Shown: piece after piece, positions 4,111 through 16,832 of the stretch | Layout: each line of letters begins with the position of its first letter | Position numbering within the stretch: position 1 is the stretch's first letter | From: Marinomonas sp. SBI8L | Lineage (GTDB): Bacteria; Pseudomonadota; Gammaproteobacteria; Pseudomonadales; Marinomonadaceae | NCBI RefSeq assembly: GCF_001624705.1 | Contig: NZ_JSEO01000018.1 | Span: 44,819-108,818 of the forward strand | Direction of reading: 5' to 3' | DNA: 64,000 bases | Notes under the pieces: generated by a model | The model's input: the letters and a program-made list of their open reading frames with translations, nothing else | The model's database searches: none | Told to the model about the DNA's origin: nothing | Translations under genes and position numbers: made by a program

Positions 4111-5550
4111 TTAGCGCTCTACGGATTTCGCTTCGTTTAGCTGGTTTTTCTTAATGATGGAATCGTAGTAGCCGGCGAAAGTGGGACGTTCAAAGTGCTT
4201 ACCGTCCCCAGGTTGGGCTAACAACTCTCCTTCGTGCCAAGCTAGCTTGCCGTTACATATGGTTGAGGTTGCACAACCATTTACAGTCATGCCTTCAAAG
4301 ATATTGAAATCAATTTTAGACATCTGGGTATCAACACTTAGGGTCTTACTCGAATTTGTATCCCAAATAACTAGGTCAGCATCAGAGCCAACAGCGATAG
4401 CGCCTTTTTGTGGGTAGATATTGAATATCTTAGCTGTGTTGGTTGAGGTAATAGCAACAAACTCATTTGGTGTCAGTTTACCTGCGTTAACACCTGTTTC
4501 CCAAAGAACAGCTAACCGTTCTTCAACCCCCGCTGTACCATTTGGAATTTTAGTGAAATTATCTTTACCCATGGCTTTTTGTTCTGCACAAAAAGCACAG
4601 TGGTCTGTCGCTGTGGTATGTAGCGTACCAGATTGAATCCCTTTCCAAAGTGCATCTTGGTGGAATTTAGGTCTGAAAGGAGGGCTCATTACATGAGCGG
4701 CTGCTCGACCCCAGTCAGAATCTTGATAAACACTGTCATCTATTACTAGGTGGCCAGCTAGACATTCACCATAAATTGTATGGCCAGAGTTTTGTGCATA
4801 CTGAATGGCATCGACCGCTTCTTTTGTCGAAACATGTACTAAATAAAGTGGCGCGCCTAACGTGTTCGCAATACTAATTGAGCGGTTGGCCGCTTCACCT
4901 TCAACCGAAGATGGGCGAGAGAGTGGGTGAGCTTCTGGGCCCGTAATACCTTGTTCTAATAATTGTTGCTGAAGGTGGTAAACCAACTCGCCGTTTTCGG
5001 CATGTACTGTTGGCATGGCGCCTAATTCTAAACAACGACTAAAGCTTGCTACCAAGATATCATCGGTCGCCATGATGGCATTTTTATAGGCCATGAAGTG
5101 CTTAAAGCTATTTACACCATAGTTCTGGGTTAGCTCTGCCATTTCTTCTTTAACACTTTCATCCCACCAAGTAATGGCAACGTGAAAACTGTAGTTCGCA
5201 TGGGATGACTGGGCCCAGTCTTGCCATTGGTGATAGGCTTCAATTAAAGACTGCTGAGGACTTGGGATAACAAAATCTATAATAGAGGTTGTACCACCCG
5301 CTAAAGCGGCTGCTGTGCCTGCTGCAAAATCATCTTTTGCTACCGTCCCCATAAAAGGCAATTGCATATGAGTATGGGGGTCTATACCACCAGGCATAAT
5401 TAACTTTCCACTGGCATCGACGACTTGTGTGTCTTTATCAATTTCTAAGTCTTGACCTATTGCGGTAATTTTACCGTCTTTACAATAAATATCTGCTTGA
5501 TAGCTAATTTCGTGAGTGACTATGGTTCCGCCTTGTATTAGTAAGGACAT
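4111..5550 (-). CDS. Dihydropyrimidinase / D-hydantoinase
   Basis: A 479-residue cyclic amidase of the amidohydrolase superfamily that opens dihydropyrimidines or hydantoins to N-carbamoyl amino acids. All expected binuclear metal ligands are visible at canonical positions: His59 and His61 (DPHTH), the carboxylated Lys150 (SFKHFMAYK), His183 (HAENGE), His239 (LYLVHVST) and Asp316 (TATDHCAF). I start at 5550, where AGGGAGAG lies about six bases upstream, not at the in-frame ATG at 5571. It is the last gene of a leftward set after the carbamoylase (7263-8498) and NCS1 permease, with an F420 gene set on the other arm. Dihydrouracil/dihydrothymine are the preferred guess because the linked regulator is RutR-like; hydantoin or allantoin are alternatives. 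Confidence 0.92.
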
Positions 5551-5582
5551 GGCTTCTCTCCCTAAGAGCAATTAAAGAATAG

Positions 5583-5612
5583 GGCACCTAATACAACGAA
5601 TGAATAGGTGCC
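5583..5612 (-). other. Intercistronic hairpin between permease and hydantoinase
   Basis: GGCACCTA (5583-5590) and TAGGTGCC (5605-5612) form a perfect 8-bp stem with a 14-base loop, in the gap after the permease stop. There is no U tract, so it is more likely an mRNA stability or partial-attenuation element than a full terminator. Confidence 0.5.
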
Positions 5613-5631
5613 TAATTTGATAAAAGATGAA

Positions 5632-14976: not shown

Positions 14977-15026
14977 TCGCAAATTTTAATAAACAGTGTT
15001 GAAGACAATCAATGTGAGGGTAAAGG

Positions 15027-15698
15027 ATGAGTATTGCAATTATTGGGGGCACAGGGCCTCAAGGTAAAGGCTTGGCATTACGTTTTGCTAGAGCTGGAAT
15101 TGATGTTGTTTTAGGTTCTCGTGATGGAGAAAAGGCGGCTAAAGATGCTTCCCAAATGAGTGAATTGTTGCCAGCGGGTAGTGCCAGTATTTCGGGTATG
15201 GGCAATATAGAAGCGACTCAAGCGGCTGAGGAGATGGTGATTTTTGCCGTGCCTTTTAGTGCGCATGAGGCAAGCTTGTTGAGTTTGAAACCACATTTAG
15301 CAGGCAAGATATTAATCGATATTGTCGTTCCTTTGGCTCAAGGCAATCCAAAAGCGGTTGATATGCCAGCTGAAGGGTCTGCGACCGAAGCAGCGCAAGC
15401 ACTTTTAGGTGAGGATATTCCTGTTGTCGGGGCTTTGCATAATGTCTCTGCTGTGACCCTCAATGATTTAGAACACGAGATAAATTGTGACGTTTTAGTT
15501 TGTGGTAACCAACTTGCTGCTAAGAAAAAAGTGATGGCACTGATTGATGTATTGGGTGTACGCACCTATAACGCTGGCCTTGCTGATAGTGCTCGTTGTA
15601 TTGAGGCAATTACGCCGATTTTAATTCGTTTGAATATTTCTAAGGATGTGCCTTTTTCACATGCAGGTATAGGGGTGCTGCCACCTCAACATGACTAG
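15027..15698 (+). CDS. fno: NADPH:F420 oxidoreductase
   Basis: A 223-residue Rossmann protein of the NADPH-dependent F420 reductase family. The dinucleotide site [20 protein letters not shown] (residues 4-23) is followed by GSRDGEKA, where the Ser-Arg pair fits NADPH selection. Segments IVVPL and GALHNVSA match the F420-binding half. The enzyme exchanges hydride between NADPH and F420; next to a predicted F420H2-consuming enzyme, its likely job is making F420H2 from NADPH. GAGGGTAAAGG precedes the ATG. It follows cofE by 50 bases. Confidence 0.92.
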
Positions 15699-15824
15699 AT
15701 AACTTAGTTGTGCTGACAAAGGTATTTAACGGCTTTTGACATTATTCAAGAGTGGAACAGATTGTTAGACGTAAATGTAAGTAGATGAAAACAATAAAAA
15801 CTTGAAGACAAAGAGGAATAAAGA

Positions 15825-16832
15825 ATGGAATTTGGTATTACTTTTAAAGGCTTCGTGAGCCCAAATCGTGCTAGAAATTTAGTGAGACAAGCCGAAGAAG
15901 CAGGCTTTGATTATTGCTGGTTCTATGACTCTCATATTTTGTGGCGTGAATCATTTGTTGCTATGGCTATGTGTATGGAGCATACAAAAACCATGCGTTT
16001 TGGACCTTGCGTAACTAACCCTAATATTAGAGATTGGTCTCTTTCTGCTAGCCTTTATGGCAGCTTGGCAGCGCAAAGTGGCGGCCGTTTTGATATTGGC
16101 TTAGGCCGTGGTGACTCATCTATGAGGGTGATGGGTAAGAAGCCAGCACCTTTGGCTCGTGTGGCTGAATTTACACATAAAGTAAAAGCCATGGTTCGCG
16201 GTGAAGAAGTTAGTTATGGCGAGTGTGAAGAGCCTGTTAAGCTACCTTGGGCTGATGGCTATGAGTTACCCGTTTGGATTGGTGCATATGGCCCTAAAGC
16301 CCTTGCTACTGCAGGTGAAGTGGGTGATGGTGTCATTTTGCAAATTGCTGAACCCAGCTTGATCACCTGGTTTAAAGACCAAGCGATTACAGCGGGCGAA
16401 GCTGCCGGTAAAGACATGTCTAACTTTAAAGTTCAGGCTGCTGCTCCTGCTTACTTCGGTAAGATGGAAGATTGTGTCGAACACACTAAATGGTTCCCAG
16501 CTATGGTAGGTAACCATGTGGCAGATATCGTTGAGAAATATGGTGCTGATTCAGGGCTTGTACCAAAGAGTCTAACGGATTATATCGAAAACCGTAAAGG
16601 TTATGATTATTCAAAACATGGTCAAAGTGATAACCCTTATCTAGATTTCATCTCTGAAGATATTGTTAAAAGTTTCTGCGTATTAGGCGAGGTGGATGAT
16701 CATATTGCGAAAATTCGCAATCTTGAAGAAGCGGGTACCACTCAGTTTAATATCTATTTAGATAATGGTGATGAAGAAAACATCATTGCCCAATACGGTA
16801 ATCACATTATCCCTGAATTTAAAAAAGGGTAA
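15825..16832 (+). CDS. F420-dependent luciferase-like oxidoreductase (Mer-like, CPS_4043 family)
   Basis: A 335-residue luciferase-fold protein close to methylenetetrahydromethanopterin reductase. Useful stretches: MEFGITFKGFVSPNRARNLV at the start, YCWFYDSHILWRESFV, RFGPCVTNPNIRDWS, and GLGRGDSSMRVMGKKPAPL (the GRGDS loop of F420-binding relatives). It fits the family named after CPS_4043 of Colwellia psychrerythraea, whose proteobacterial members have no established function. AGAGGAATAAAGA precedes the ATG, 126 bases after fno, and a terminator follows, so it ends the operon. I infer a reductase of a pyrimidine or other cyclic ureide, upstream of the dihydropyrimidinase. An FMN/oxygen-using RutA-like role is less likely given the F420 genes. 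Confidence 0.9.
   Translation: MEFGITFKGFVSPNRARNLVRQAEEAGFDYCWFYDSHILWRESFVAMAMCMEHTKTMRFGPCVTNPNIRDWSLSASLYGSLAAQSGGRFDIGLGRGDSSMRVMGKKPAPLARVAEFTHKVKAMVRGEEVSYGECEEPVKLPWADGYELPVWIGAYGPKALATAGEVGDGVILQIAEPSLITWFKDQAITAGEAAGKDMSNFKVQAAAPAYFGKMEDCVEHTKWFPAMVGNHVADIVEKYGADSGLVPKSLTDYIENRKGYDYSKHGQSDNPYLDFISEDIVKSFCVLGEVDDHIAKIRNLEEAGTTQFNIYLDNGDEENIIAQYGNHIIPEFKKG

Follow-up and report, generated by a model that had tools for sequence, protein, structure and literature searches.

We analyzed a 64,000-nucleotide stretch of DNA from Marinomonas sp. SBI8L (contig NZ_JSEO01000018.1, positions 44,819 to 108,818; hereafter the window) and propose that a gene cluster within it encodes a pathway of reductive pyrimidine catabolism that would depend on the cofactor F420 in its first step (probability roughly 0.8). 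In this cluster, a luciferase-fold enzyme of the LLM class (hereafter the LLM) most likely reduces uracil or thymine with F420H2, a step taken in the known pathway by PreTA. An earlier note, made from the letters of the window alone, had suggested that an F420 enzyme replaces this first step; comparative genomics strongly supports the suggestion through a swap with PreTA, co-inheritance of the LLM with dihydropyrimidinase (HydA) and RutR-type operator-like sites, and it is from these that we infer the reaction itself.

We scored the window's open reading frames from position 4111 to 16832 using NCBIfam equivalog cut-offs and Pfam family scans (Table 1), which agreed with the earlier note on every gene and its position. 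The hydA, permease and M20 genes lie on the minus strand, and the regulator, cofGHDCE, npdG and LLM genes diverge from them on the plus strand. The set for F420 synthesis and reduction is complete, with CofG, CofH, CofD, CofC, CofE and NpdG all over their cut-offs. In HydA, we located the motifs for six metal ligands that had been noted before (H66, H68, K157, H190, H246 and D323, in open reading frame numbering), residues whose ligand roles we assume; the real start codon may lie inside this frame, downstream of the assigned TTG. The M20 enzyme belongs to the hydantoinase/carbamoylase family TIGR01879, and the regulator contains the RutR-type C-terminal domain PF08362 and misses the cut-off of the RutR equivalog TIGR03613.

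In the proposed pathway, the permease would import the base, CofG, CofH, CofD, CofC and CofE would synthesize F420, and NpdG would reduce it using NADPH. The LLM, a member of family TIGR03842, would then use F420H2 as hydride donor to saturate uracil or thymine at C5=C6, yielding dihydrouracil or dihydrothymine, with electrons presumably flowing in this direction. HydA would open the ring to give an N-carbamoyl beta-amino acid, from which the M20 enzyme would release beta-alanine or beta-aminoisobutyrate together with CO2 and ammonia. The hydrolase and F420 operons may both be governed by the RutR-like regulator.

Exchange with PreTA and inheritance with HydA

The earlier note had described PreTA as missing here, and had held that a PreTA or Rut system elsewhere in the genome would speak against its proposal. 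The window cluster lacks PreTA, and in the host assembly (5.19 Mb, 69 contigs, 99.98% complete) neither PreA nor RutA had a match over cut-off (none for RutA at 1 × 10−80), in a search that did not extend to the URC and oxidative/barbiturase routes. The single DHO_dh domain over cut-off in this genome belongs to a 350-amino-acid PyrD-like protein. Across 49 genomes of the genus, the LLM was found over cut-off in 25, HydA in 26 and CofG in the identical 26, and PreA was found in none (0/51 when two further genomes searched alongside are counted). The sole genome with HydA and CofG and without the LLM (G445) has a contig that stops inside CofC, so that contig does not reach the place expected for the LLM. 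In 23 of the 25 genomes with the LLM, it lies on one contig with HydA within a span of about 13 kb; of the two exceptions, one has a contig end that cuts through HydA (G444) and the other has the LLM and HydA on two contigs (G466). HydA was thus present in 25/25 genus genomes with the LLM versus 1/24 without it (Fisher p = 4 × 10−13, for related genomes that are not independent), a co-inheritance by which we ruled out accidental linkage.

We then turned to 369 sampled Gammaproteobacteria genomes, scoring in each genome the 4 or 5 candidates that ranked highest at first look. HydA was present in 16 of these; PreA accompanied it in 10 and the LLM in 2, neither did so in 4, and none of the 16 had both. 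The two genomes with TIGR03842 over cut-off (G000 and G295) were the only such genomes among the 369, and both had HydA and lacked PreA. The ten PreA loci (15–19 kb each) encoded HydA in 10/10, M20 or CN-hydrolase in 9/10, an NCS1 permease in 7/10 and a RutR relative in 4/10, and relatives of the window's M20 enzyme (48–55% identity) occurred in five of them. The window cluster shares this complement with the Pyd pathway, in which PreTA (PydA) stands where the F420 genes would stand in clusters that are otherwise alike; the two differ in that a single F420-type enzyme of the LLM fold replaces the flavin and Fe-S PreT-PreA pair, and in the added genes for F420 synthesis or import.

One such comparison can be drawn between two genomes coded as one genus, G190 with PreTA and G295 with F420 genes, whose HydA and M20 enzymes are 77% and 72% identical; an equally close HydA (78%) comes from a PreTA cluster of another genus (L162). 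In G295, one contig carries HydA, M20, RutR and CofG/H together, and a second, which ends in CofH, carries the LLM. A HydA tree built from 45 of 50 extracted rows (five with fewer than 300 residues were dropped) needed six changes between the PreTA and F420 labels, at least two of them forced by well-supported branches. From these changes we conclude that related hydrolases, as judged from the tree, have been combined with PreTA or with the LLM repeatedly.

Table 1. Features of the window cluster, with family scores or matches.
Feature	Position	Strand	Score or match
HydA, dihydropyrimidinase	4111..5571	-	TIGR02033 568.9 bits, cut-off 393; metal-ligand motifs
NCS1-type nucleobase permease	5632..7155	-	PF02133 311 bits; TIGR00800 320 bits, just under cut-off 353
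M20 amidohydrolase, proposed N-carbamoyl-beta-alanine amidohydrolase	7263..8498	-	NF006769 593 bits; TIGR01879 425.9 bits (cut-off 204); both over cut-off
RutR-type operator-like palindrome TTTACCAAATGGTCAA	8628..8643	.	1 mismatch to assumed consensus TTGACCANNTGGTCAA; 130 bp before M20 operon
RutR-like TetR-family regulator	9002..9640	+	PF08362 159 bits; TIGR03613 188.9 bits, under equivalog cut-off 368
Second operator-like palindrome TATACCAAATGGTAAA	9910..9925	.	3 mismatches to assumed consensus TTGACCANNTGGTCAA; 115 bp before cofG
CofG, FO synthase subunit	10025..11158	+	TIGR03550 471.7 bits, cut-off 213
CofH, FO synthase subunit	11159..12562	+	TIGR03551 498.3 bits, cut-off 374
CofD	12565..13545	+	TIGR01819 281.9 bits, cut-off 257
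CofC	13542..14210	+	TIGR03552 129.6 bits, cut-off 105
CofE, F420-0:glutamate ligase	14191..14976	+	TIGR01916 246.7 bits, cut-off 181; PF01996
NpdG, NADPH-dependent F420 reductase (makes F420H2)	15027..15698	+	TIGR01915 201 bits, cut-off 150
LLM-class enzyme, proposed F420H2-dependent uracil/thymine reductase	15825..16832	+	TIGR03842 526.5 bits, cut-off 295.45

Outside the cluster, all on the minus strand, the window also encodes a 314-amino-acid protein that matches nothing in Pfam at E 0.001 (21884–22828), an 872-amino-acid protein that combines two stretches for binding cyclic nucleotides with a GDSL lipase domain and a weak, sub-cut-off match to acyltransferases (22977–25595), and a stand-alone flavin-reductase-like PF01613 protein (25622–26227).

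Identity and neighborhoods of the LLM

TIGR03842 (F420_CPS_4043), the family of the LLM, is typed only as a hypothetical equivalog. Residues H37, R69, W142, Q173, H231 and H265 of the LLM are invariant. For the AlphaFold2 model of the LLM (mean pLDDT 89.1), the top 15 solved folds by rank were F420-dependent enzymes; these folds, together with genomic co-occurrence, suggest that its cofactor is F420. A sequence search among solved structures found no TIGR03842 member, only Mer and remoter F420 and FMN enzymes. Mer (F420-dependent methylene-H4MPT reductase) is the closest solved structure and shares the F420 fold. Nevertheless, we rejected Mer as the identity of the LLM, which scores 124.7 bits against TIGR03555, far under the cut-off of 348.7. 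The position of Mer Glu6, a residue that is mutated (E6Q) in structure 8qq8 and presumably catalytic, is Thr in 36 and Cys in 22 of 58 relatives (58/58). Given also the linkage to HydA, there is only a vanishing chance that the LLM is Mer or another C1 enzyme in an incidental neighborhood. The host genome encodes two other PF00296 proteins, both outside TIGR03842, one with no NCBIfam match at E 1 × 10−40 and one MsnO8-like.

RutA has the same luciferase-like fold as the LLM, and the Rut pathway likewise has a RutR-type regulator. The LLM might accordingly be a RutA-like FMN monooxygenase that opens the uracil ring, with the F420 genes as neighbors without a direct role. This is highly improbable: RutA (TIGR03612, cut-off 498.3) was not among the 19 NCBIfam families that the LLM matched at E 0.001, the best-ranked structures are F420 enzymes, and 58 of 80 loci have F420 genes or an F420-0 importer close to the LLM (see below). 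Whereas RutA opens the ring oxidatively, the enzyme that would come next here is HydA, and dihydropyrimidinase acts on a saturated ring. We found no relatives of RutA or RutB in the first 20 kb or the remainder of the window.

A contig scan identified at least 591 relatives of the LLM, and the best 80 loci were retained for all counts over 80 loci. HydA was found in 36, M20 in 28 and CN-hydrolase in 14, with at least one of the three in 45, and CofG, CofH, CofD or NpdG in 49. Neither set was found in 14 loci, nine of which hold the importer (49 + 9 giving the 58 above). PreA and PreT had no match in any of the 80. The earlier note had regarded a linkage unique to this strain as telling against its proposal; the linkage recurs in other Gammaproteobacteria, in Alphaproteobacteria, in metagenome-assembled genomes (MAGs) of Chloroflexota and on one Streptomyces plasmid, the only locus examined from Actinobacteria. 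Examples of the cluster come from Marinomonas (L044–L048), Halomonas, Vibrio, Paracoccus denitrificans (L069) and Chloroflexota MAGs. On a Leisingera plasmid the order is NCS1, hydA, Zn hydrolase, omega-aminotransferase, pntAB, cofGHDCE, npdG, LLM and TetR. A Paracoccus alcaliphilus plasmid carries F420 genes and the LLM, with no hydA within the 15 kb flanks, and on the Streptomyces plasmid a CN-hydrolase, a weak aminotransferase match and HydA precede the LLM (42% identity). We dropped PntAB as evidence for an F420-specific NADPH supply because PntAB relatives also adjoin a PreTA cluster (L161).

Two loci deserve separate mention. A Caballeronia plasmid (L039:10001–10384) encodes only the 128 C-terminal residues of an LLM (74% identity), beside Zn hydrolase and transhydrogenase-like genes, and resembles a cluster remnant. 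A locus titled Nocardioides marinus (L065) has the Leisingera-type arrangement, with a PntA 81% identical to that of Leisingera, and is possibly from a mislabelled or contaminated assembly.

Some of these clusters also bear on the fate of the product. In one Chloroflexota locus (L102), an aminotransferase, a CoA-acylating methylmalonate-semialdehyde dehydrogenase (MMSDH), a CN-hydrolase, the LLM and HydA stand together. MMSDH (TIGR01722, cut-off 448.5) scored 547–553 bits in three scanned loci, and its relatives lie close to the LLM in 18/80 loci, eight of them from Gammaproteobacteria; the CN-hydrolase best fits the NCBIfam model for N-carbamoylputrescine amidase, with a score under that model's cut-off. 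An aminotransferase and MMSDH form the expected route from beta-alanine and beta-aminoisobutyrate to CoA esters, and because some clusters hold both, uracil or thymine is a likelier substrate than another cyclic ureide. A different role would be that of an F420-dependent (semi)aldehyde or hydroxy-acid oxidoreductase acting downstream, on malonate or methylmalonate semialdehyde, with dihydropyrimidines or hydantoins taken up ready-made. We consider this very unlikely, since the MMSDH relative covers the semialdehyde step in those 18 loci and the LLM stands in for PreTA, not for a semialdehyde enzyme.

The earlier note had also proposed searching genomes for this enzyme family together with dihydropyrimidinase and without PreTA and Rut. 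Our census of PreA, RutA and the importer covered 52 genomes with the LLM, namely G000, G295 and 50 genomes hand-picked from the 80 loci, with priority given to isolates and diverse MAGs; HydA and CofG were counted in 31 of those 50 and in the 49 genus members. In this census, 44 of the 52 genomes had neither PreA nor RutA over cut-off, and HydA was found in 30 of the 31 tested outside the genus.

F420 supply and RutR-type sites

Among the same 31 genomes, CofG was present in 22 and absent from nine. Five of these nine form a Devosia group (three Devosia, Pelagibacterium and one Hyphomicrobiales MAG). A putative F420-0 importer (TIGR03868) was over cut-off in all five and in two more Devosia genomes outside the CofG census, and in no other of the 52 genomes, 22 of which matched it below cut-off. 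Each of the nine Devosia-group loci (L078, L079, L081, L083, L087, L088, L090, L099 and L117) has the importer and a CofE relative, and all except L099 have an FGD relative; FGD and CofE are over their equivalog cut-offs in L081, and L098 has FGD without the importer. With importer, CofE and FGD beside the LLM, the Devosia group therefore seems to import, finish and reduce F420-0 at this place, and these organisms resemble F420 auxotrophs that live on scavenged cofactor.

Two palindromes in the window resemble TTGACCANNTGGTCAA, which we take to be the E. coli RutR box consensus, and have a common core TACCAAATGGT; one precedes the M20 operon and the other cofG (Table 1). We infer that the regulator binds them, under control of a ligand. 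The cofG site of the window is also found in L170 and L044. We weighed this evidence by position and by recurrence across clusters only, not by counts over the whole window. A site with at most two mismatches was found in 21 of 41 cofG upstream regions (300 bp), where 0.03 were expected (an expectation from first-order Markov resampling, not exact dinucleotide shuffles); the 41 regions are not independent, because close relatives such as several Leisingera are included. Upstream of other genes the counts were 1/51 for NpdG, 0/48 for CofD, 0/49 for CofE and 9/84 for the LLM. The nine sites before the LLM are those of the nine Devosia-group loci, which have no cofG, and lie 39–56 bp before its start. 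Two of the ten PreTA clusters (L161 and L162) have sites with no or one mismatch before M20, PreT or the regulator.

Precedents, alternatives and significance

F420 enzymes of the LLM class that reduce such rings have precedents in the form of predictions, in the passages available of two papers. Genetics point to a putative F420/FMN oxidoreductase (NpsU/SSGG-03002) that would reduce the uracil C5=C6 bond in mureidomycins (PMC10714638); this protein, which we likened to the LLM by description only, differs in serving biosynthesis of the antibiotics napsamycin and mureidomycin. In Chloroflexota, a PF00296 enzyme that replaces a flavin reductase beside an amidohydrolase has been proposed as a yanthine reductase (PMC12507026), similar in arrangement to the LLM; it differs in its predicted substrate, a purine derived from uric acid, and in its SsnA context, and these passages do not state membership in TIGR03842. 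We found no paper linking F420 with pyrimidine catabolism in the open-access literature, subscription papers and preprints being outside the search, and in papers that use both terms the passages retrieved concern other matters.

Several observations weigh against the pathway proposed here. In 35 of the 80 loci, and in 22 of the 51 with full flanks, the fetched flank contains no HydA, M20 or CN-hydrolase, and one genome with the LLM (G417, 50% identity) lacks HydA. PreA was over cut-off in 7/52 genomes (three Leisingera, Limimaricola, Aquamicrobium, Devosia psychrophila and a Geminicoccaceae MAG) and RutA in 1/52 (Poseidonocella), and another genome (G386) has a near-full-length PreA match below cut-off (219 bits). 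In four MAGs with the LLM, neither CofG nor the importer reached its cut-off, so that no F420 source is apparent in them; in these (Chloroflexota L102, L104 and L106, and L112, labelled Pleurocapsa), the LLM adjoins HydA, and in the three Chloroflexota loci also a CN-hydrolase. As to the operator-like sites, 20 of the 41 cofG regions have none with two or fewer mismatches, the cofG site of the window matches with three, which is also the fewest that any site in the rutA-rutR gap of E. coli has, and a count along the entire window showed no excess of the motif over chance (4 sites, 3.35 expected). To our knowledge, no enzyme activity has been assigned to any TIGR03842 member. Finally, the authors of the mureidomycin study found no product with the uracil-ring reductase in vitro, according to the passages available (PMC10714638).

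The PreA-containing genomes bear on a further alternative, in which the LLM reduces a modified pyrimidine, such as a 5-substituted uracil, or some other unsaturated cyclic ureide, HydA and M20 process the product, and uracil is not the main substrate. We judge this unlikely, with evidence on both sides. The HydA and M20 families are broad, with hydantoinase, allantoinase and allantoate relatives also matching. Two of the seven genomes that keep PreA (G384 and G416) have one HydA less than 3 kb from PreA and a second elsewhere, which neighbors CofG in G416 and lies at the start of a contig in G384, as if two pathways with different substrates ran in parallel, and the yanthine reductase proposal offers a precedent for another ring. 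Weighed against this are the F420 genes occupying the place of PreTA among related HydA, M20 or CN-hydrolase, NCS1 and sometimes RutR-like genes, the MMSDH and omega-aminotransferase near the LLM in some loci, which fit beta-alanine and beta-aminoisobutyrate, and the RutR-type sites before cofG. Uracil or thymine thus remains the substrate that we prefer.

A 2021 review states, in the passages available, that outside Actinobacteria no bacterial F420H2-dependent reductase had been studied experimentally, that why Proteobacteria make F420 is an unanswered question, and that Paracoccus denitrificans contains trace F420 (PMC8498797); the Paracoccus denitrificans locus above carries the LLM/F420 cluster. 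At about even odds, we would generalize further: TIGR03842 may comprise F420H2-dependent dihydropyrimidine-forming reductases that arose apart from PreTA; throughout Proteobacteria the two would exchange with each other, and the family would extend to Chloroflexota and Actinobacteria. Pyrimidine catabolism would then be a main reason that many Proteobacteria make F420, F420 synthesis would be under RutR-type pyrimidine control, and the Devosia group would import F420-0 as a vitamin largely for the TIGR03842 enzyme. If true, pyrimidine breakdown would gain an additional first step and the orphan family TIGR03842 a named function, a trade in F420 as a vitamin would be predicted, and F420 in many Proteobacteria would gain a concrete, regulated and growth-testable job.

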